From assembly GCA_029553475.1 (NCBI GenBank), contig JAKPKV010000126.1, forward strand, positions 1 to 64,000: a stretch of DNA of 64,000 bases. The letters run 5' to 3'. The stretch comes from Armatimonadota bacterium (GTDB lineage Bacteria > Armatimonadota > Hebobacteria > CAIYQO01). A model generated the notes under the pieces. It was given only the letters and a program-made list of their open reading frames with translations. It made no database searches and had not been told where the DNA came from. Every line of letters begins with the position of its first letter. Within the stretch, counting starts at the first letter, position 1. The position numbers and the translations under genes are program-made. Positions 44,201-57,022 of the stretch are shown here, in pieces.

Positions 44201-44342
44201 TCGTGACGCCTATGCGGGGTGAGGGTGAAGGAGCGTGAAGATCTCAATGCGCGCATCAGTAAAATAGCGGCCAGGCGCTGTCGCCCCCGACTCCGGAGTC
44301 ACGCGGGGCGCGCGGCATTGGTCGGCGGGAACGGAGGCGGTG

Positions 44343-45164
44343 ATGTCCGCGTTAACCATCGGTGTGTTCACGTCCCTGGGCGCTGAGCCGGCGCAGACCT
44401 TCGCGTCCGTGCGCGCGATGGGGCTGGCGAGCTGTCAGCTCGGCTGCTGGCGGCCGCTGGACGCGTCGCGCGCGCTGGTGGAGGCCAACCGCGCGGCGGC
44501 GGAGGCGGCGGGGGTGACGATCACCGCCTTCTGGTGCGGCTATCGCGGACCGGCGGTCTGGAACTACGCCGAGGGACCGTCCACCATCGGGCTGGTGCCG
44601 GCCGAATACCGCGCGATGCGCGTGGACGACCTGCGGCGCGGCGCGGAGATCGCCTCCTGGCTGGGCATCCGCGATATGGCCACCCATGTCGGCTTCCTGC
44701 CGATGAACCCGCGCGACCCCGACTACCTGGGCGCGGTGGACGCCATCCGCGCCGTCGCCGAATATGCCGGCGGGCACGGCGTCTACTTCAACTTCGAAAC
44801 CGGCCAGGAAACCCCCACCGTGCTGCTGCGCTGCATCCAGGACGTGGGCCTGCCCAACCTGGGCGTGAACCTGGACCCCGCGAACCTGCTCCTGTACGGC
44901 ACCGGCAATCCGGTGGACGCGCTGGACGTCTTCGGCGCTTACGTGCGCGGGGTGCACGCCAAAGACGGCGAATATCCCACCGACGGCCGCGCCCTCGGCG
45001 AGGAAAAACCCCTCGGCGAGGGCCGGGTGAATTTTCCCGCCCTCGTCGCCAAACTCAAAGCCTGTGGCTACGCCGGCGCCCTCACCATCGAGCGCGAAAT
45101 CAGCGGCCCGCAACAGATCGAGGATATCAAGCGGGCGATTGCCGTGTTGACGCCGCTGCTCTAA
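44343..45164 (+). CDS. Sugar phosphate isomerase/epimerase (xylose isomerase-like TIM barrel)
   Basis: A 273-residue paralogue of the protein at 21063-21839. Metal motifs YFNFETGQET (Glu), GVNLDPANLL (Asp), RGVHAKDG (His) and LTIEREISG (Glu) are conserved. Substrate unknown. CGGAGGCGGTG precedes ATG 44343; GTG 44340 is possible. It stands next to the secreted CBM9-hydrolase fusion, which has its own promoter. Confidence 0.85.
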   Translation: MSALTIGVFTSLGAEPAQTFASVRAMGLASCQLGCWRPLDASRALVEANRAAAEAAGVTITAFWCGYRGPAVWNYAEGPSTIGLVPAEYRAMRVDDLRRGAEIASWLGIRDMATHVGFLPMNPRDPDYLGAVDAIRAVAEYAGGHGVYFNFETGQETPTVLLRCIQDVGLPNLGVNLDPANLLLYGTGNPVDALDVFGAYVRGVHAKDGEYPTDGRALGEEKPLGEGRVNFPALVAKLKACGYAGALTIEREISGPQQIEDIKRAIAVLTPLL

Positions 45165-45231: not shown

Positions 45232-45278
45232 CTGGTATCGCACACCGGACCATTCACCCACCGTTACGGAGGACAACT

Positions 45279-47807
45279 ATGCGCATCAACACCCTATTCC
45301 TCGTCGTGATAGGCTTACTCTGCTCTGCCGTATGGGCCGTAGAACCGCCGAAAGACCCCACGCCGCTCTTCGACATCCCGCGGCTGGAGGGCATCACCAT
45401 TGACGGCGATCCGGCTGACTGGGGGGGGCACGGCTTCCGTGTGGGGCCATTGCTCACGCTGGATGGCAAAATCCGCCCCTCGGACAATTATGACAGCCGC
45501 TTCCGGCTGGGGTGGAACGACCAGGGCATCCTCTTCGTCGGCTTCGTGCGCGACAGCTTCATCGAGGAAGCAGAGAAGATGGCCGAGTTGGGTGGGCGTG
45601 ACGCTGTTGAGCTCTTCATGGGCACTAAGCGCAACACCCCCGGCTTTTACCAGTTACAGGTGACTTCCGGCGCCGACCCGAAATATGGCAAGGCGCGCTG
45701 GTATGCCTACGATTATCGCGTGGACCGGGAGAAGCTGCCGGCGATTACCGCGACGATTGCCGGCAAACGCACGGCGGACGGCTACGTGCTGGAAGCGCTG
45801 CTGCCTTTCGCCAACCTGGGCATCACGCCCGCACTCGGCCTGGAAGTGGGCGTGCAGGTGTGGATGACCGACTCCGACACTCGCGGCGACTGGTTCCGCA
45901 CGCTCTGGTATCCAGAGGGGTATCGCGGACCGAACTACACCGGCAACCTCTCCCGCGTGCGGTTGTCCACCCAGGCCAGCGCGCCCGTGCAGGCGGCGGT
46001 GTGCGGCAATTATGAGCGTTTCCGCCGCGCGCGCATCAACGTCTACGGCATTGCCGAACTCACCGGCAAGCGCGTGCAGTTGAAGGATGGGCGAAAAACC
46101 GTCGCCATCGGCACGATGGCCCGGGAGAGCGACCTGCGCGCGAATGCGGTCCTCACTTTGCCGATGCCGCCCGCCGGTAAACCCTACGGCGCCTTCGCCG
46201 TGCTGGTGGATGGTAAACAAGTCGGCATCGTGACGCTACCGGCGGATATTGATACGCTGAAGGCGAAGGAATTTTTCTTCCTCTCGCCGGTCTTCCGGCC
46301 GTGCGTCTTCGGCGGCACCGCCTTCCCGGCCTGCGACTTCCTCAACCCGCAGCAGGTAGAAGACCTGATTGGCCCCTACACCATCAAGACAACCTTCTAT
46401 GACAAGGACTACAACCAGGTGACCGCCGCCACGAAGCCCGGCCGGTATGGCGCCGTCATCGAAATCATTCCGGAGGACGGCCGGCCATATCGCCGCTTCC
46501 GCACCATCTATCGCGTACCGGATGGCGTCAATCTCGAAAAGATGGACCAGTGGGTGACCGTCACCCTGCCGAAGGAGTTCGGCTTTGATGCCGCACTGCT
46601 GGCCGAGCGCAATCAAGAACTGCGCTGGCGCTTCTCCGGCCGCTTCTGGGCAACATCCGCCTTTGGCAATGGCGATGCCGTCTACTGCGCCGGTTTGGCG
46701 GAGGATAAGCCGGGCGGTTTCGCCGATGACTGGCACACGAAAGAAGGGATGAGCGCCGACAGGCGCTACTGGGTGGGCCTGAAGCGCAAACTATATGGCA
46801 CCGATACGCTGTTCCCCAACGCCTTCGTCGCCCCCACCCCAAAGGAGGGCGCCCCAGCGCCGGTAGTGCATCCCGGCACGCTGCAGGAGGCGGGCATGCA
46901 GCCGGATACCGTGGAAAAGCTGGATGCGCTCTGTACGGAGTGGGTAGCCAACACCGATGAGGCATTCATCGCCTGCGTGGTGCGCCGCGGGGTCGTAGTG
47001 TTCAACAAGGCCTACGGCACGCGTGACGGCACGCCAATGACCGTCCACACACCGAGTTATATCGCGTCGCTCACCAAGATGATGTCCGGCGCCTGCATGA
47101 TGATGGTGGTGGATCGGGGGATCATTGACCTCGACGACGATATCGCGAAGGTATTGCCGCCGCTGCGCGATGCGCCGGTGAAAACCCCGCTCACCCTGCG
47201 CCGTCTGTGCAATCACTACAACGGCGGCTGGGACCACTGGGGTGACTACGACATTGATACCGAAGAGATGATCGCCTGGTATTACCCCTACCTGCAGATC
47301 GGTGCTGTCGGCGCATACAACGGTCAGGGGTACGCTCTCGGCAGCCGCATCGTAGAGCAGGTCAGCGGCGAGGCGCTGGGCGACTTCTATCAGCAGCACC
47401 TTTTTGGACCACTGAGCTGCGCCGATACCTATGGTCATGCCGCCGGCTACGGCGTCTACAGCACCGCGCTCGATATGGCGAAGTTCGGACAGATGATGCT
47501 GAACAAGGGCGCCTACGGTAACATGCGCTTCTTCAGCGAGGTGGCCTGGCGGAAGATGATGCCGACGAAACTGACGATGCTCCTTGGTCCTGATACCGAA
47601 GTCACCGGTGGCATCGGCTGCGGGCAATGGGGCGGACCTGGTCTCAGCACCAACTGCATCAGCCACGGTTCCGCTTCGGCGACGACGCTCATCATTGATT
47701 ATGATAACGACCTGATCATCGCCATGACCCGCAATGGTCCCGGCGCGAACTACAGCACGTATCACCCGCAATACATCAAAACCGTGACGGACTGCATGGT
47801 GAAGTAA
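45279..47807 (+). CDS. Secreted fusion of CBM9-like domain and beta-lactamase-family serine hydrolase
   Basis: An 842-residue protein with a Sec signal (MRINTLFLVVIGLLCSAVWA). Residues about 35-230 look like a CBM9/DOMON carbohydrate-binding domain (ITIDGDPADWGG, RFRLGWNDQGILFVGFVRD, VELFMG, YVLEALLPFANLGI, VGVQVWMTDSD). Residues 230-560 are beta-rich and unassigned. The C terminus is an S12/class C beta-lactamase fold: Ser597-x-x-Lys600 in ASLTKMMSG, Tyr680 in AYNGQGYALG and HGS (796-798) for the KTG-like motif. Such domains are esterases, transesterases or D-amino-peptidases. A surface enzyme acting on a decorated polysaccharide is a reasonable guess. A CGGAGGACAACT ribosome binding site precedes the start. 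Confidence 0.75.
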   Translation: MRINTLFLVVIGLLCSAVWAVEPPKDPTPLFDIPRLEGITIDGDPADWGGHGFRVGPLLTLDGKIRPSDNYDSRFRLGWNDQGILFVGFVRDSFIEEAEKMAELGGRDAVELFMGTKRNTPGFYQLQVTSGADPKYGKARWYAYDYRVDREKLPAITATIAGKRTADGYVLEALLPFANLGITPALGLEVGVQVWMTDSDTRGDWFRTLWYPEGYRGPNYTGNLSRVRLSTQASAPVQAAVCGNYERFRRARINVYGIAELTGKRVQLKDGRKTVAIGTMARESDLRANAVLTLPMPPAGKPYGAFAVLVDGKQVGIVTLPADIDTLKAKEFFFLSPVFRPCVFGGTAFPACDFLNPQQVEDLIGPYTIKTTFYDKDYNQVTAATKPGRYGAVIEIIPEDGRPYRRFRTIYRVPDGVNLEKMDQWVTVTLPKEFGFDAALLAERNQELRWRFSGRFWATSAFGNGDAVYCAGLAEDKPGGFADDWHTKEGMSADRRYWVGLKRKLYGTDTLFPNAFVAPTPKEGAPAPVVHPGTLQEAGMQPDTVEKLDALCTEWVANTDEAFIACVVRRGVVVFNKAYGTRDGTPMTVHTPSYIASLTKMMSGACMMMVVDRGIIDLDDDIAKVLPPLRDAPVKTPLTLRRLCNHYNGGWDHWGDYDIDTEEMIAWYYPYLQIGAVGAYNGQGYALGSRIVEQVSGEALGDFYQQHLFGPLSCADTYGHAAGYGVYSTALDMAKFGQMMLNKGAYGNMRFFSEVAWRKMMPTKLTMLLGPDTEVTGGIGCGQWGGPGLSTNCISHGSASATTLIIDYDNDLIIAMTRNGPGANYSTYHPQYIKTVTDCMVK

Positions 47808-47859: not shown

Positions 47860-50800
47860 TCACTCCTGCTTCCGCGGCACGTCCGGCGCCACCGGCGGCA
47901 GAGAGAAGCGGGTGATGCGGATATCGTTTTTCCCCTCGAAGAGCGGCAGCGCCATGCCGGTATCGTAGTAGCCCACCTGCCACTGCGTGCCGTTGAGGTA
48001 GAGGGTGGGGGCGATGCCGGTGAGGATGGGGCCGTCGTTCTGCGCGGGGATCATGTCGCGCGAGAAGGCGAGCTGCGGGCAGGTGGCGGGGGCCAGGTTT
48101 TGCGGCAGCGGCAGCTCCAGCACGCGCGCGCGGCCGTCCGACACGCCCGTCACCTCGCCGCCTTGCTCGCCGTTCGGCGGGGTGAAGACCAGATCATACG
48201 GTCCCTCGCCGCGGATGACGTAGCCCTGGTAGCCGATAGAGGCGAGCGGTCCCACGGCGTAGTCGCGTCCCATCATCACGCGGAATTGTGTGCCGGTGAC
48301 GATGACCATGCCCAACTGGCCCGTGAACACCACGCCGTCCCGCGCGAAATCGAGCGGTGTCTCGCTGATGAAGCCATAGGCAAAGCCGTCGCGCAGCGTA
48401 TATTTCGTCACGCCGGGTTGGATTTCGACCTTCTCGGTATAGACGATGGCGGGGTCGCGCGCCCACGGTTCGTAGTGGTAGTATTCCTGTTTGAGTTCGC
48501 CTGTTTCCAATGCTTCACGGGACAGGATTTCTTCGGTCGGCATGAAGCTGCGGAGGCGATAATTGCGGCAGCGCGCCTGACCACCGCCGGAGAGCAGCGC
48601 GATGGAGACGCCCCCGTCCAGGGTGCGATGAATGGCCCCGCTGCGCCCGCGGAACTCCACCATCTCCTCCTGGTAGGTGATGGGCTCGTCCGGGCTCAGG
48701 AAGGCCCAGTCCAGGCTGTCCTGCGCCTCCACCTTCACCACGCCGGGGGCGGGAGAGCTGACGACGGGGCGCTTCATATCCGCCTGTCGGGGGTAGATGA
48801 CCACCAGGTAATCCTGCCCCGCCGGGGCGTCCAGGCGCATGAGGGTGGCGCCGCCGGGCGGGAAGCCGCAGCCCGCGCCGCCCGCCGTCGCCTTGTAGGT
48901 GAAGGTGGGCTTGATCTGCGCCAGGTTGGCGAAGACGAGTTCCAGCACGTTCCCCTGCGGCGTCTTCACCACCACCCGGTTCCCCTCGACGGCGATATCC
49001 TCCGGCTTGCCCAGCAGCCAGCAGTGCCAGTGCGTGGGGTGCAGCTCCGGCCCGCGGAAGGTGTCGCGCAGCACGACGTAGGTGGGATTCTGCGGATGCT
49101 GACTCTTCATCACGATGAACTGCCGGTACCAGTCGAACGGCGCCGTCACGAAGCCGTTGGCCGATCCCCCCGATTTATAATCGAAGCGCTGCCGCCCGCA
49201 CAGGTAATCGGCGGTTTTCAGGTAGGCGTAGTCGCTGATCATGGTATCCACGCGCCCGTGGTTGTTCATCCACTCCTTGCCGTCGCCGAAGCTGATGATG
49301 CCGTGCTGGGTGGTGGCGGGCGCCGGACTGTTATAGCCCAGGCTGCTGTTCGGGATCATCTGCTCGCCGAAGGCGTAGAGTTTGAACGAGCCCTGGTCCA
49401 TGTCGAAATGGCTCTGGTTATGCCCCTGGCGGAAGAGCAGAAAGGTCTCCGAGGGCTGGCCGAAATTCGCGCGCGAGGTGGCGCCGAAGCCGGGCAGGAA
49501 GGCGCCGGGCAGATCGCGCGGCGCCATCGGCGCCACGGAGGGATCATACGCGAGCCACGACGAGGGGGCGACGTGCCCGCCGGGATACCGGCCCATCGCG
49601 TCCCAGGCCCACATCAGGTTCGCCGCCAGCTCCGGGTCTTTCTCCTTGATGAGGGTGGCCATGAAGGGCATCGAATCGCCGCGCGAGCGCGTGCCGTTGC
49701 CGGTGCCTTCGCAGTAGCGCAGGTTGCGGTCGTTGCGATCCACCGGCGAGAGCACCGCCAGCATATAGCGATGAATCGCCGCCGCGTACCCCAGCATGGC
49801 GTCGCTGGCCGTGCCGGCGTGCTGCAGCGCGAGCAGCGCCTCGGTGATGTGCGGCACCGCCGCCTGCTGATAGGCCTGCTCCTCGCGCCACGCGCCGTAG
49901 GGCGAGGTGTTGTCCGCCAGCTTCCACCCGACGTAGGCGACGGCGTCCTGCATCCACGCCGCGTACATCGGGTGCGTGGGGATGAGGCTGATGTACTGCG
50001 GGAAGCCCATGTAGCGATTGATGGGCATGTTCGGGTTGCCCAGGTGGTCGCCCAGCCCGCGCGGGTTGAAGTCGGGGTCGGCCAGTAGGTAGCAGCGCGC
50101 GGCGATCTTCGCGCGCAGCGTCGCCGTCTCCTCCGCGGAGAGGCCCGGCCACGCCAGCGCGTCGTCGGCGTAGGGCACGATGCCGTTATCATTCTGCGCC
50201 TGGCGGAAGGAAGAACCCGTTTGCGTTGCGCCTTCCTTCAGCCGGGCATCCAGGCCGGCCAGCGCTTTTCGGTATGACGCGCGGCCATTGTCATCGGTGG
50301 GATTTATGACGTAGAGCTTCTGCAGGGCGTCTTTGTAGGGGTTCTGCGGCAGCGTCGCCTTGCGGAGCTGCGCGCCGGCGGCATCCAGGTAGGTCGTGGG
50401 CGGGGGGACGCGCCGGGCGCCGACCGGATCCGTCCACTCCAGCACCCAGTCTTTATAGCGGTCCAGGCCGATGAAGCCGTACTGCAGGCGCTGGGCCTGC
50501 CGGTTGCCGTCCGCCAGCGTCAGCCCCCAGACGCGGCGGCCGTAGCTGTCCGGCTGACCGGGGTCGTTCTCCGCGGAATCGAAGGGATTCCACGGTCGCA
50601 GCACGCCGTAGCAGGTGAAGGGCAGCTCCAGCACGTTCGCCTGGCCCGCCGCCGCGCGCAGGCGCGCCACCGCGTTGTGCGGGTGGCGCCAGCGCCCCGA
50701 ATGGAGCACCAGCATCCCCAGCTTCAATGCCGGGTCCATCTCCAGATACATGCGCCCGCCGAACATATCCCACGGGGCGATGGGGGTGAAGGTGCCGGCC

Positions 50801-51597
50801 GGCGCCGCCACCTTGCCGAAGTCGCCGCTCTTCCACGGGATGACGTGCTGGTCGGGATCATCCGGCGACGGCATGCCGCTGCCGGTGGTGATGGCCAGGT
50901 AATCGCGGCCATCGGTGAAGCCCGGCGTGGCGAATTCCTCGTCAATGAAGGCCATCGGCGCGCCCTGGTCCAGCCGGATGACGATGGAGTAGACGCCTTC
51001 CGGTTCAAACGCATAGTAGTAGGCCACCTCGGCGAAGACCGGGCCGCTGGCGAGGATCTTCGCCGTGCAGGACGTGACTTTGCGCGCGGTCATCAGCTTT
51101 GAGCCGCCCACCCACGTGCCGTCCGCCGCGCGGAAACCGGCGATCGGGCCCGGCAGCTCCCCGGCGGGCACCGGCTTTTTCGCCTTCAGCGTGCCGGTGG
51201 GGCCCAGGCGCAGCGCCACCGTGTCGTTTTTGACTTCGAGGTAGCCTTTGCCCTTCGTCACCGAGACCGGGGCGGCGGGCTTCACGCCGCGCTGCCCGTC
51301 GCGCAGCAGGTAGCGGGCGGTGCCGTTGGCAGGCACGGCGGCGAGGAAGCTCACCGTCGCCTCCGTCATTCCGCCGCCCTTCGCCGTCTTCACGTCGGTG
51401 AACTGCACCGGCAGCGCGGCGCCCGCCTCATCGAAGAGCGCCAGCTCCGCCGCCTTCACCGGCGCGGGGAATTTCACCTCGTAGGACACCACCTCCGGCC
51501 CCCACTGGCGACCGGTGACATCGCGCATGACGAAGGCCTTTTCATCGGCGCGGGCGGACAAGCCGAGCAGCAGGGCGAGAAACAGCAGCGTGCGCAT
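47860..51597 (-). CDS. Second giant secreted heparinase II/III-like protein
   Basis: A 1245-residue protein with a signal peptide (MRTLLFLALLLGLSARA) and a good GGAGGTG ribosome binding site. N-terminal beta-rich region to about 450; helical toroid with PYGAWREEQAYQQAAVPHI (Glu/Tyr, like the lyase active-site segment); beta-sandwich with FLLFRQGHNQSHFDMDQGSFKLYAFGEQ, strongly typical of heparinase II/III-like proteins. Architecture parallels 3187-6672 at low identity. Probably an extracellular polysaccharide lyase, but the lyase class and substrate cannot be given. The longer upstream frame overlaps the AKR gene and is rejected. Confidence 0.75.
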   Translation of the reverse strand: MRTLLFLALLLGLSARADEKAFVMRDVTGRQWGPEVVSYEVKFPAPVKAAELALFDEAGAALPVQFTDVKTAKGGGMTEATVSFLAAVPANGTARYLLRDGQRGVKPAAPVSVTKGKGYLEVKNDTVALRLGPTGTLKAKKPVPAGELPGPIAGFRAADGTWVGGSKLMTARKVTSCTAKILASGPVFAEVAYYYAFEPEGVYSIVIRLDQGAPMAFIDEEFATPGFTDGRDYLAITTGSGMPSPDDPDQHVIPWKSGDFGKVAAPAGTFTPIAPWDMFGGRMYLEMDPALKLGMLVLHSGRWRHPHNAVARLRAAAGQANVLELPFTCYGVLRPWNPFDSAENDPGQPDSYGRRVWGLTLADGNRQAQRLQYGFIGLDRYKDWVLEWTDPVGARRVPPPTTYLDAAGAQLRKATLPQNPYKDALQKLYVINPTDDNGRASYRKALAGLDARLKEGATQTGSSFRQAQNDNGIVPYADDALAWPGLSAEETATLRAKIAARCYLLADPDFNPRGLGDHLGNPNMPINRYMGFPQYISLIPTHPMYAAWMQDAVAYVGWKLADNTSPYGAWREEQAYQQAAVPHITEALLALQHAGTASDAMLGYAAAIHRYMLAVLSPVDRNDRNLRYCEGTGNGTRSRGDSMPFMATLIKEKDPELAANLMWAWDAMGRYPGGHVAPSSWLAYDPSVAPMAPRDLPGAFLPGFGATSRANFGQPSETFLLFRQGHNQSHFDMDQGSFKLYAFGEQMIPNSSLGYNSPAPATTQHGIISFGDGKEWMNNHGRVDTMISDYAYLKTADYLCGRQRFDYKSGGSANGFVTAPFDWYRQFIVMKSQHPQNPTYVVLRDTFRGPELHPTHWHCWLLGKPEDIAVEGNRVVVKTPQGNVLELVFANLAQIKPTFTYKATAGGAGCGFPPGGATLMRLDAPAGQDYLVVIYPRQADMKRPVVSSPAPGVVKVEAQDSLDWAFLSPDEPITYQEEMVEFRGRSGAIHRTLDGGVSIALLSGGGQARCRNYRLRSFMPTEEILSREALETGELKQEYYHYEPWARDPAIVYTEKVEIQPGVTKYTLRDGFAYGFISETPLDFARDGVVFTGQLGMVIVTGTQFRVMMGRDYAVGPLASIGYQGYVIRGEGPYDLVFTPPNGEQGGEVTGVSDGRARVLELPLPQNLAPATCPQLAFSRDMIPAQNDGPILTGIAPTLYLNGTQWQVGYYDTGMALPLFEGKNDIRITRFSLPPVAPDVPRKQE

Positions 51598-51713
51598 GGG
51601 ACACCTCCGTATGCTGACGCACATGCATTTCGACCGGCTCGCCGCAATATCCTGCGCGGGCGGCGTACTGAAAAAGGGCCAACCGGCCGGCTGGCCCCGC
51701 GCCGCACGGATTG

Positions 51714-52841
51714 CTATGAGCTTTCCCCCGCCAGGGCCGCGCGCGCCTCCGCCAACTGCCGCCGGATGTCCAGTTTCTGCGGGCATTTCGGCTCACAGTC
51801 GCCGCATGCCACGCAGGCGTCGGCTTTCGCGCCCGGATTCCACTGGCTGGCGCCGATGCCGGCGTAGCTGGCGCGGGCGTGGTCCCACAGGCCGTAGACG
51901 CGGCCCATGTTGTAGGCGCGGAAGATATCGGGGATTTTCACCGCCTGGGGGCAGGGCAGGCAGTAGGCGCAGCCGGAGCAGTAGAGCTCGGCCAGCGTGC
52001 GCATGCGGGCAAGGTGCGCTGCAATGGCGGCCTTGTCGTCGTCAGACAGGCTGATGGCGTCGGAGCAGGTGGCCAGATTTTCCTCCACCTGCGGCATGGT
52101 GCTCATGCCGGAGAGCGCCACCGAAATATGCGGATTCGCCAGCACGAAGCGCAGCGCCAGCTCCGGCACGCGGGTGATGCCGGGGATGAGCGAGGCCAGC
52201 ACGTCGCTATCCGCGCCCAGCCGCCCGCCGCCCACCGGCCCCATGGCCACGATGCCGATGCCGCGGGCATGCGCGTAGGCAATGCCCTCTTCCAGCGAGC
52301 GATCCAGCATGTTGTACTGCAGGGTGATGACCTCGGGATACCCGCTGTCCACCAGTTGCATCAGCGCCGCGTTGCTGTCGTGGAAGGAACAGCAGATATG
52401 GCGGATCAGCCCCTGGTCCCGCGCTTTCCGCATCCACCCGCTCAGCCGCGGCGCGACCTCCGTCTCATACGCCTGCCAGCGGATGCCGTGGTGGTTATAG
52501 ATGTCAATGCAGTCCACCTGCAGCCGCTCCAGGCTGTCCTCCAGATTCTTCCACCACTCGGCCTCATCAGGGCCGTAGTAGGGATTCTTCGTCGAGACGA
52601 CGATCTTCTCGCGCCAGCCCTTCAGCGCTTCGCCGACCACGCGCTGGCTGTCCTGGTGGCAATAGCCCACCGCGGTATCAATGTAGGTGACGCCGCCGGC
52701 AAAGGCGCGATGGATCATCGGGATCGCCAGCTCGCGGTCCACCCGCGGCTGTCCATCCACTTCCGTCATCGGCAGGCGCATGGCGCCGAAACCCAGTTGC
52801 GACACGGTGAGCCCGGTGCGGCCCAGCGTACGAACAATCAT
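51714..52841 (-). CDS. Aldo/keto reductase with C-terminal 4Fe-4S domain
   Basis: A 375-residue protein. AKR barrel: LGRTGLTVSQLGFGAMRLP, GVTYIDTAVGYCHQDSQ with catalytic Asp and Tyr, IVVSTKNPYY with Lys, and IYNHHGIRW with His. The last 100 residues contain CSGCAYCLPC and CVACGDCEPKCP, two clusters of Cys of ferredoxin type. This AKR-ferredoxin form is common in anaerobes and environmental bacteria and is mostly uncharacterised. Start ATG 52841 opens the family N terminus; GGAGGA lies about 11 bases upstream. Next to two other oxidoreductases, perhaps for sugar interconversion. Confidence 0.88.
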   Translation of the reverse strand: MIVRTLGRTGLTVSQLGFGAMRLPMTEVDGQPRVDRELAIPMIHRAFAGGVTYIDTAVGYCHQDSQRVVGEALKGWREKIVVSTKNPYYGPDEAEWWKNLEDSLERLQVDCIDIYNHHGIRWQAYETEVAPRLSGWMRKARDQGLIRHICCSFHDSNAALMQLVDSGYPEVITLQYNMLDRSLEEGIAYAHARGIGIVAMGPVGGGRLGADSDVLASLIPGITRVPELALRFVLANPHISVALSGMSTMPQVEENLATCSDAISLSDDDKAAIAAHLARMRTLAELYCSGCAYCLPCPQAVKIPDIFRAYNMGRVYGLWDHARASYAGIGASQWNPGAKADACVACGDCEPKCPQKLDIRRQLAEARAALAGESS

Positions 52842-52939
52842 GCGAGTCTGTCCTCCGGGCACTTATGATAAACGCGCGGGCGCGGGATGGGCAAGCGGAG
52901 CGGGCACAGCGCCGGCGCCCGCGGCCATCCCCCGGCCCC

Positions 52940-55004: not shown

Positions 55005-56924
55005 TTATTGCAGGTAGCCGAGGGAGCGTAAGCGCGCGCGTGCCTTCTCCGCATCGAAGACGGACGCGGCGCGCCGACGGAAGGCGGCGTCGCGCGCGTC
55101 GAGGAGCGCGTCGTGCCGGCGCATCCGCGCGCGCAGCGCGTCGAGCAGCGTCGGCTGCGCGGCGGCCAGGTCGCGGTAGGCGCCCGGATCGGCGCGCAGA
55201 TCGAAGAGGTGGTGGGTGGACTGCCCGATGAAGAAAGTGAGGCCGCCGGCGAAGGGGTCATCCTCCGCGACGGCGCATTGCACGCCGCGATAGTACACCT
55301 GCCCGTTGAGCGTGAGGCTCCGCACGCCGTTGACGGTGGCGCCGTAGACCGGTTGCTCCGCGGGACGCAGCAGCGTTGCGGTGTCTACTCCCTCCCCGTG
55401 CAGTCCCAGGCGCGCGGAGGGCGCCCCGAGCATCGCCAGCACCGACGGATATAGATCAATGAGCGGGAACGTCCCGGCGACGACGCGGCCCGCCCGCTGG
55501 CGCGGATGCTTGATGAGCAGCGGCACCTCCGTGACTTCCCGGTGCAGCGTGTAGGTGTGCCCGTAGCGGCCATGCTCCAAAAACTCCTCCCCGTGGTCGC
55601 TACAGACGATAATCAGCGCGTCATCATACAGGCCGCGCGCGCGCAGACCGTCGAAAAGGCGGCCGATGGCGCGATCGGTATACGCGATTTCCGAATTGTA
55701 CTTCGCCAGCACATCCCGGCGCTGGCGCTCCAGCGCGGGGTCCGCGCCGCGGCGGCGCGCCGCCGGCGACAGCGTCGTCGTCCAGGCCGGATTCAGCGCG
55801 TCGCGCTTCGACGGGCCGAAGACGAACTCCGGATGCTGAGTATACGGCTCGTGGGTGTCTGCGTACATCAGGAACAGGAAGAAGGGGCGATGCCGCGGGG
55901 CGCGCTCCAGCGCGCGGGCCGTCACCTCCGGCGCGCATTTCTCGGTGAAATCCTGCGCCCCGCCGAGGGTCGTGAAGGAGTGAAAATGCTGGCTGAAAGG
56001 AAAATTCACGTCGTGGTGCAGCAGCGGATGCGAAGTGACGGCGATCGTCCGATAGCCGCGATTCGCCAGCGCCGCCGGCAGACCGGGATAGACGCCCGCG
56101 TCCGCCACGTAGTCGCTCTCGCGGAAGATGCGCTCGGGGGCGCGGGCGGTGAGGACGGACGCGGTGGACCAGAGCGTCCATGAGGACGGCGCGACCGCGC
56201 GGGCAAAGCGCGTACTCTCCCGCGCGAAGCGGTCCAGGTGCGGCGAGGTGGGGAGGTCGTACCCGTAGCACCCTAGGTGGTCCGCCCGCAGCGAGCAGAC
56301 CATCACCAGGATGATGTTCGGCTGCCGGCGCGCGGCGAGGGCGGTGGCGGCCCACTGCCAGCCGGCAGCCAGGTTGATGACCAGGAAGAGCAGCAGGAAC
56401 AGGCCGGAGACGCCCCACAGCAGCTTCCGCATGATGCCGCTCCCGCGTGGCGCCCGCGGGGCAGGGGCCGACGCCCGCGGCGCAGCCGGCGCGGCGGGCC
56501 GGCGCGCGCGGCGCAGCCGCCACAGCACCCCGGTGCACAGGAGGAGCGCGGCCAGCAGCAGCGCCGGGCGCAGCACCTCCGGGTCGGCGAGCCGGTGGAG
56601 CAGCGCCGGCCTGATGGGCGCCGGCAGCAGCGCCCCGGCGATGCCCAGCCCGGCGAATGGCAGAAGCGCCCGCAGCGCCGTCCCGACGCGCGGCGGGCAG
56701 CGGCGCGCGAGGGCGGCGTAGAGCAGCAGCACGGCGATGCCGCCGGTCATCAGCAGCGTCCAGCGGTTCACCTGGCCGGCGAGCTGCGCCGTGAGGAGCC
56801 GGTCCAGCCGACAGTCAGCAGCGAGATGCCATTGCGGGGACAGCCAGCAGGCGGCGACGCCGGCCAGCACGCCCGGCGGCACGCCCAGGGACAGCGGCAG
56901 CCACCACCACCAGTGCGTCTTCAT
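55005..56924 (-). CDS. Membrane-anchored sulfatase/alkaline-phosphatase superfamily protein
   Basis: A 639-residue protein. About five N-terminal membrane segments up to residue 190 (PLSLGVPPGVLAGVAACWL, LLMTGGIAVLLLYAALA, LLPFAGLGIAGALL, ALLLAALLLCTGVLW, LLWGVSGLFLLLFLVINLA) precede an extracytoplasmic sulfatase fold. RADHLGCYGYDLPTSPHLDRF is classic, but the expected metal Asp two residues before LRAD is Cys210 (VMVCSLRAD), and the nucleophile loop reads APSSWTLWSTASVLTA. The second metal site SDHGEEFLEHGRYGH is intact. It ends RLRSLGYLQ as many sulfatases do. Either a phosphoglycerol-transferase-like enzyme or a catalytically altered sulfatase. Confidence 0.8.
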   Translation of the reverse strand: MKTHWWWWLPLSLGVPPGVLAGVAACWLSPQWHLAADCRLDRLLTAQLAGQVNRWTLLMTGGIAVLLLYAALARRCPPRVGTALRALLPFAGLGIAGALLPAPIRPALLHRLADPEVLRPALLLAALLLCTGVLWRLRRARRPAAPAAPRASAPAPRAPRGSGIMRKLLWGVSGLFLLLFLVINLAAGWQWAATALAARRQPNIILVMVCSLRADHLGCYGYDLPTSPHLDRFARESTRFARAVAPSSWTLWSTASVLTARAPERIFRESDYVADAGVYPGLPAALANRGYRTIAVTSHPLLHHDVNFPFSQHFHSFTTLGGAQDFTEKCAPEVTARALERAPRHRPFFLFLMYADTHEPYTQHPEFVFGPSKRDALNPAWTTTLSPAARRRGADPALERQRRDVLAKYNSEIAYTDRAIGRLFDGLRARGLYDDALIIVCSDHGEEFLEHGRYGHTYTLHREVTEVPLLIKHPRQRAGRVVAGTFPLIDLYPSVLAMLGAPSARLGLHGEGVDTATLLRPAEQPVYGATVNGVRSLTLNGQVYYRGVQCAVAEDDPFAGGLTFFIGQSTHHLFDLRADPGAYRDLAAAQPTLLDALRARMRRHDALLDARDAAFRRRAASVFDAEKARARLRSLGYLQ

Positions 56925-56990
56925 CACGAGGACTCCGCGGGGGATATGCGAACAATAGCACCGCCGTTCGCGCCCCGTCAAGGGAACACG

Positions 56991-57022
56991 CGACAGCGGC
57001 ATGGAAGGCCATGCCGCTGTCG
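56991..57022. terminator. 14-bp stem hairpin between pseudopilin and sulfatase genes
   Basis: CGACAGCGGCATGG, loop AAGG, and the exact complement, 25 bases beyond the pseudopilin stop on the minus strand. No U-run; termination or mRNA 3'-end protection likely. Confidence 0.5.

Follow-up and report, generated by a model that had tools for sequence, protein, structure and literature searches.

The 842-residue protein encoded at 45279-47807 of the window (the whole stretch of 64,000 nucleotides that was analysed) has the domain order CBM9-like, M1, M2, PF00144. Judged by sequence profiles, its M1-M2 middle region is a chassis shared by PF00144 proteins and alpha/beta-hydrolase proteins. M2 is an uncatalogued module, which is the new point beyond the original prediction. 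That prediction had described one unassigned region of 330 residues; the region was real, but it consisted of two conserved modules and was not one unique stretch. The uncatalogued module and the exchange of the catalytic fold beside it are the interesting part of this result.

Gene and encoded protein

The window gene is real, intact, and conserved (Table 1). Its frame runs from the ATG at 45279 to the stop at 47807 with no internal stops, and the copy number was one in its 5.27 Mb assembly. By eye, a putative Sec signal terminating in AVWA was observed and no lipobox was found. The 842-residue protein with CBM9-like and S12-type parts that had been predicted was borne out by the intact frame and by Pfam matches to both CBM9_1 and PF00144, and it is apparently exported. 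AlphaFold2 models were poor because the alignment was limited to the window and L002 rows: the mean pLDDT was 31.7 for the full-length protein (two L002 rows) and 39.0 for M2 (one such row). These low-pLDDT models placed strands around residues 367-413 and a helix past 438, and they were not relied on.

Table 1. Positions of the gene, its modules, and its catalytic motifs in the window.
Feature	Positions	Strand	Basis or remark
Whole gene, 842 aa	45279..47807	+	Intact reading frame; single copy in own genome
GGAGG ribosome-binding site, 6 nt 5' of ATG	45268..45272	+	Sequence by eye
Likely Sec signal peptide, residues 1-20, MRINTLFLVVIGLLCSAVWA	45279..45338	+	By eye
CBM9-like domain, residues 29-236	45363..45986	+	Pfam PF06452, profile to PDB 1i82, alignment
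M1 module, residues 238-330	45990..46268	+	Common to alpha/beta-hydrolase members
M2 module, residues 340-512	46296..46814	+	Uncatalogued; N-terminal to serine hydrolase wherever readable
PF00144 serine hydrolase domain, residues 532-842	46872..47804	+	Pfam, alignment, tree
S597-L-T-K600, catalytic Ser and Lys	47067..47078	+	Kept in 15/15
H646 to H653, second His clade-specific	47214..47237	+	15/15 in clade
Y680-N-G motif	47316..47324	+	15/15; 0/23 other PF00144 proteins
H796-G-S third motif	47664..47672	+	HG[S/A] in 15/15: 9 S, 6 A

The M1-M2 middle region

The M1 row of the window protein matched nothing in Pfam at E ≤ 1. When nine M1-M2 rows were compared with Pfam, no family was matched by more than one row, and then only above E 0.1. 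M2 had no match among PDB sequences (best E 0.34). The Ig-like front domain of EstA was also considered as an M2 relative but gained no support from sequence, since phmmer with L015 aligned the catalytic part alone to 3doh.

Five relatives (L008, L015, L017, L019, and L020) had the same middle region followed by an alpha/beta-hydrolase C-terminus; these ends were identified by Pfam on four of the five and on L018, and by alignment for all five. An M1-M2 profile built from these five rows only found the window protein (P0001) at E 6.1e-67 and recovered all 11 PF00144 members (E-values for a nominal 100000 sequences). L004-L007 were found at 1e-56 or better; for L009-L011 and L013 the E-values did not exceed 5e-11, and the matches of L012 (1.1e-4) and L014 (2.4e-5) were weak. 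None of the 11 shuffled controls matched at E ≤ 10. The reverse profile, made from the M2 of L009-L014 only, recovered all five alpha/beta-hydrolase members at 1.9e-18 to 1.3e-10. This cross-finding indicates that one chassis bears two unrelated catalytic folds.

Relatives and domain architectures

At a threshold of E ≤ 1e-20, the window protein had matches in 17 of the 291 genomes from its phylum. The full-length relatives L004, L005, and L006 showed 41-43% identity, and the other relatives shared parts only. L104, from another phylum-level group, had the same four-part build with 41% identity over 846 columns. The exact CBM9-M1-M2-PF00144 build was thus present in five proteins (P0001, L004, L005, L006, and L104), and no published work on a CBM9-PF00144 protein was found in the open-licence literature, so the expectation of an architecture neither widespread nor characterised held.

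The M2 profile (A3) detected 16 copies in 15 of the 291 genomes, none beyond its building rows, and a search of 397 relatives yielded exactly these 15 genomes again. In the phylum of G291, a Lentisphaerota MAG that is the source of the one locus among named contigs, M2 was matched 14 times, in 13 of the 387 genomes sampled. The C-terminal side was readable in 27 of these 30 M2 matches from two phylum-level groups: 16 carried PF00144, 11 an alpha/beta-hydrolase, and none any other domain. The three matches outside the 27 were L110, which runs into a contig end, L111, whose frame is broken, and the G291 remnant. One genome (G197) encoded one M2 protein of each type.

The end domains of L101-L113 were assigned from alignment and motifs, without a Pfam scan. 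L101 and L105 showed a CBM9-M1-M2-alpha/beta-hydrolase order, and L102, L103, and L109 an M2-alpha/beta-hydrolase order, as did L108, whose start lies off the contig. Another front domain preceded M2-PF00144 in L107, L112, and L113, and likewise in L106, whose contig ends inside the catalytic domain. The Ser-Asp-His triad was kept in all 11 alpha/beta-hydrolase chassis-mates; the window protein has PF00144 in place of such an EstA-type domain. Against the PDB, the alpha/beta-hydrolase domain of L015 matched EstA (3doh, E 1e-41) and LC-Est1C (3wyd, E 4e-39).

Several further loci were observed. L009, L010, L011, and L013 have a common front of about 190 residues with weak PA14 and GH2 sugar-binding (GH2-N) similarity, which replaces CBM9-M1. 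L016 matched the window protein via CBM9 only, and L003, from the same genus, did so weakly and also via CBM9 only. L018 (2616-1, minus strand) combines CBM9, an M1-like part, no clear M2, and an S9-like alpha/beta-hydrolase end; it was not counted among the M2 proteins and is possibly a further chassis variant. L002 (4473-5079 and 5821-6795, Lentisphaerota MAG) holds adjacent broken pieces of two family copies. L108 and L110 (contigs C624 and C617 of G687) are nearly identical M2 pieces at contig ends; an alpha/beta-hydrolase follows the first and a different front domain precedes the second, and they may be two copies. The protein was not found in the viral contigs searched, and PADLOC gave no match. 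A plasmid search matched 107 records, none covering more than 80% of the query, and the matches listed were generic serine hydrolases.

Catalytic domain

Pfam PF00144 matched residues 565-823 (E 6.6e-30, 104.8 bits, cut-off 27). Motifs were counted in the 15 M2-linked PF00144 members with a complete domain, leaving out L106, which is cut by a contig end, and were compared with 23 other PF00144 proteins from eight of the same genomes. Ser597, Lys600, Tyr680, and His796 were kept in 15/15. The H653 position was His in only one of the 20 other proteins readable there. The usual H/K-x-G third motif was absent from the clade: the His was kept and the Gly was changed to Ser or Ala in every member, compared with Gly at the third place in 19/19 readable other proteins, of which 15 had the opening His. 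The HGS in place of the usual third motif, which the original prediction had pointed out, was therefore confirmed; since every one of the 15 relatives in which the motif is readable has HG[S/A], it is a subfamily mark and no oddity. The best solved matches of the PF00144 profile in the PDB were 7uda and 7u1b (E 4e-32).

CBM9-like front domain

Pfam CBM9_1 (PF06452) matched residues 63-202 just above its cut-off (E 4.4e-5, 23.9 bits, cut-off 23.4). A nine-row profile of the window protein and eight relatives found 1i82 in the PDB at E 1.4e-12 and 7nwn at 2.5e-8; with this 1i82 match the CBM9 family assignment is secure. In 1i82, the CBM9-2 of Thermotoga Xyn10A, two tryptophans act as a sugar clamp. 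In a loose loop alignment, the first clamp position corresponds to G105 of the window protein; across the nine rows it was Trp in four (L004, L005, L016, and L019), and L008 has Tyr and L002 has Phe there. The second position was Trp in 0/9 rows, again with loose loop alignment. As the canonical Trp clamp is missing from the window copy, we name the domain CBM9-like only, and its sugar site appears less secure than its family assignment.

Trees and history of the exchange

In the M2 tree, the CBM9-type PF00144 proteins grouped with the alpha/beta-hydrolase members with support of 98/97 (16 rows) and 96/98 (26 rows), and the PF00144 proteins with other front domains fell apart from that group. 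This tree is unrooted and has several long-branch rows, and L108, whose M2 is incomplete, was left out of the 26-row version. In the PF00144-domain tree, the M2-linked domains formed one clade against the 23 others (100/100), divided once more into these two subgroups. The 26-row M2 tree did not reject a single origin of the alpha/beta-hydrolase members (p-AU 0.245). The most parsimonious scenario starts from an old pairing of M2 with PF00144, whose catalytic domain was later replaced on the CBM9-M1-M2 branch. Because the M2 trees are unrooted, the exchange could also have run in the opposite direction. At the sequence level, the comparisons establish that the serine hydrolase fold was exchanged while the chassis was kept; its direction and a common substrate are what we infer.

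Genomic neighbourhoods

The nearest gene upstream on this strand encodes a TIM-barrel sugar-isomerase-like protein (44340-45164). The next gene downstream is convergent (47860-51786, minus strand) and encodes an apparently exported protein of 1308 residues, which had no sequence match in Pfam, NCBIfam, PADLOC, or PDB; its HFDMDQGSFKLYAFGE stretch resembles heparinase II/III-type lyases. A fusion of an aldo/keto reductase with a C-terminal 4Fe-4S dicluster domain lies at 51714-52862 (minus strand). A sulfatase gene about 7 kb downstream (55005-57002, minus strand) is compatible with a glycan-use neighbourhood. No recognised glycoside hydrolase was present among the immediate neighbours.

Across all loci, no gene family besides the enzyme recurred, and flank similarity was limited to the near-identical sister genomes L030 and L031 and to scattered one-to-one matches. 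The L024 gene comes after a solute-binding protein and two permeases of sugar-type ABC transport and before an alpha-L-arabinofuranosidase, and all of these genes share one strand. The L033 gene has a GHL10-GH53 protein 88 bases downstream. The neighbour was GHL6/GH42-like at L021, GHL10 at L027, and a GxGYxYP protein at L030. Glycoside-hydrolase-type neighbours were thus found, among the chosen neighbours scanned, at 5 of 17 loci, or at 6 when DUF4838 beside L112 is counted; the remaining 12 or 11 loci had unrelated or unmatched neighbour genes. These glycan-type neighbours are only a hint of a glycan link.

Proposed function

We propose that the protein is an exported serine esterase acting on a polymer, most likely a polysaccharide bearing acyl esters (probability of about 0.58). 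The CBM9-like domain would hold the polymer, and the M1-M2 chassis would connect it with the catalytic domain, perhaps also shaping the cleft on its acceptor side. By analogy with the family, Ser597, activated by Lys600 and Tyr680, would take the acyl group, water would release it, and the H796-G-S strand would form the edge of the pocket. In related proteins an EstA/LC-Est1-type alpha/beta-hydrolase sits on this chassis instead, so the lineage swapped serine hydrolase folds and kept the chassis.

Such a replacement of one catalytic fold by an unrelated one, with the chassis retained, gives a strong natural hint at function: both enzymes should do the same job, and testing either would test both. 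Ester hydrolysis is most plausibly the chemistry common to both folds, and the CBM9-like modules and some glycoside-hydrolase neighbours favour a glycan substrate. The polysaccharide-targeted esterase of the original prediction thus received indirect support from the alpha/beta-hydrolase exchange, the CBM9-like module, and glycan neighbours at 5/17 loci, but the absence of the Trp clamp in this copy speaks against it; the transesterase named with it gained no specific support. If the job is glycan deacylation, the beta-lactamase fold would gain a place among polysaccharide esterases, and an uncatalogued module of two phylum-level bacterial groups would get a name.

More tentatively, M2 might be a previously undescribed obligate partner of secreted serine hydrolases, a socket in which a beta-lactamase-fold domain gave way to an alpha/beta-hydrolase, or the other way round, while the polymer target was kept. 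On this reading, the PF00144 branch would represent a novel type of polysaccharide esterase, marked by HG[S/A] and the second His, that plausibly strips acyl groups such as feruloyl or acetyl from glycans rich in arabinose or galactose. No known activity of any M2 protein was found in the literature searched.

Among the alternatives, an amide-cutting hydrolase of a natural polyamide, peptide, or cell-wall peptides survives best, although we consider it unlikely. Its model is Nyl4Apx, a secreted polyamide-4 depolymerase of Pseudoxanthomonas with 841 residues (PMC13269358), which cleaves amide bonds and is described as a CBM-like domain followed by an Ig-like middle domain and a catalytic part of the AmpC superfamily. 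Since Nyl4Apx cuts amides, a binding module joined to PF00144 implies neither an ester nor a sugar. The best weak NCBIfam match of the window protein was PBP4B (40 bits, cut-off 385), and PHROG 382, a minor tail protein with lysin activity, matched at E 3.7e-16; such generic PF00144 matches are uninformative on substrate. In class C enzymes, recognition of the amide is linked to the Asn that closes Y-x-N, but this place is Gly in 15/15 clade members, and the chassis-mates are esterase-type alpha/beta-hydrolases; both points speak against an amide-cutting enzyme.

A polyester depolymerase of PHA type is improbable. The alpha/beta-hydrolase chassis-mates do match the NCBIfam extracellular PHA depolymerase type 1 family, but the L008 score (E 2.1e-19, 70 bits) does not reach half of the cut-off (150), the matches to EstA and LC-Est1C are better, and the protein has a CBM9-like front and no PHA-binding domain. 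It is very improbable that the protein has lost its enzyme function and only binds: Y-N-G and H-G-S depart from Y-x-N and H-x-G, but both changes are fixed in 15/15 members from two phylum-level groups that keep Ser, Lys, Tyr, and His, as would be expected of a functional subfamily. Least credible is a resistance enzyme or true beta-lactamase, as only the fold speaks for it, against a class C NCBIfam score of 20.4 bits (cut-off 415), YNG and HGS instead of Y-x-N and K-T-G, and large binding modules.

Comparison with known systems

Nyl4Apx, compared by its published description only, resembles the window protein in length, in a binding-type beta-sandwich, in a middle beta-sandwich, and in a PF00144-type domain with S-x-x-K and Tyr. 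It differs in its choice-of-anchor D front, in a middle that is Ig-like by Dali, and in its polyamide substrate. Known Nyl4A members are described as showing 34-48% homology over the binding and catalytic domains (PMC13269358).

The Caulobacter esterase EstG (PDB 7U1B, Daitch 2023), for which a cyclic glucose hexamer is the reported substrate (PMC11389396), is among the best solved matches of the PF00144 profile named above. Unlike the window protein, EstG matched no CBM9 or M2, and the alignment of its sister entry 7uda lacks YNG and HG[S/A]. CBM9-2 of Thermotoga Xyn10A belongs to the same family as the front domain by the profile match to 1i82, but both of its clamp tryptophans are lost in the window protein.

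The closest solved relative of the alternative alpha/beta-hydrolase domain is 3doh (with 3doi), the EstA of Thermotoga maritima (the organism name fits the title of Levisson 2009). EstA has its own Ig-like front; the match spans the catalytic domain and not M2, and the window protein carries the other fold. Family VIII lipolytic esterases, such as EstB (1ci8), share the Ser-x-x-Lys and Tyr catalysis and the PF00144 fold (E 5e-16), but they are usually single-domain enzymes with a third motif different from that of the window protein.
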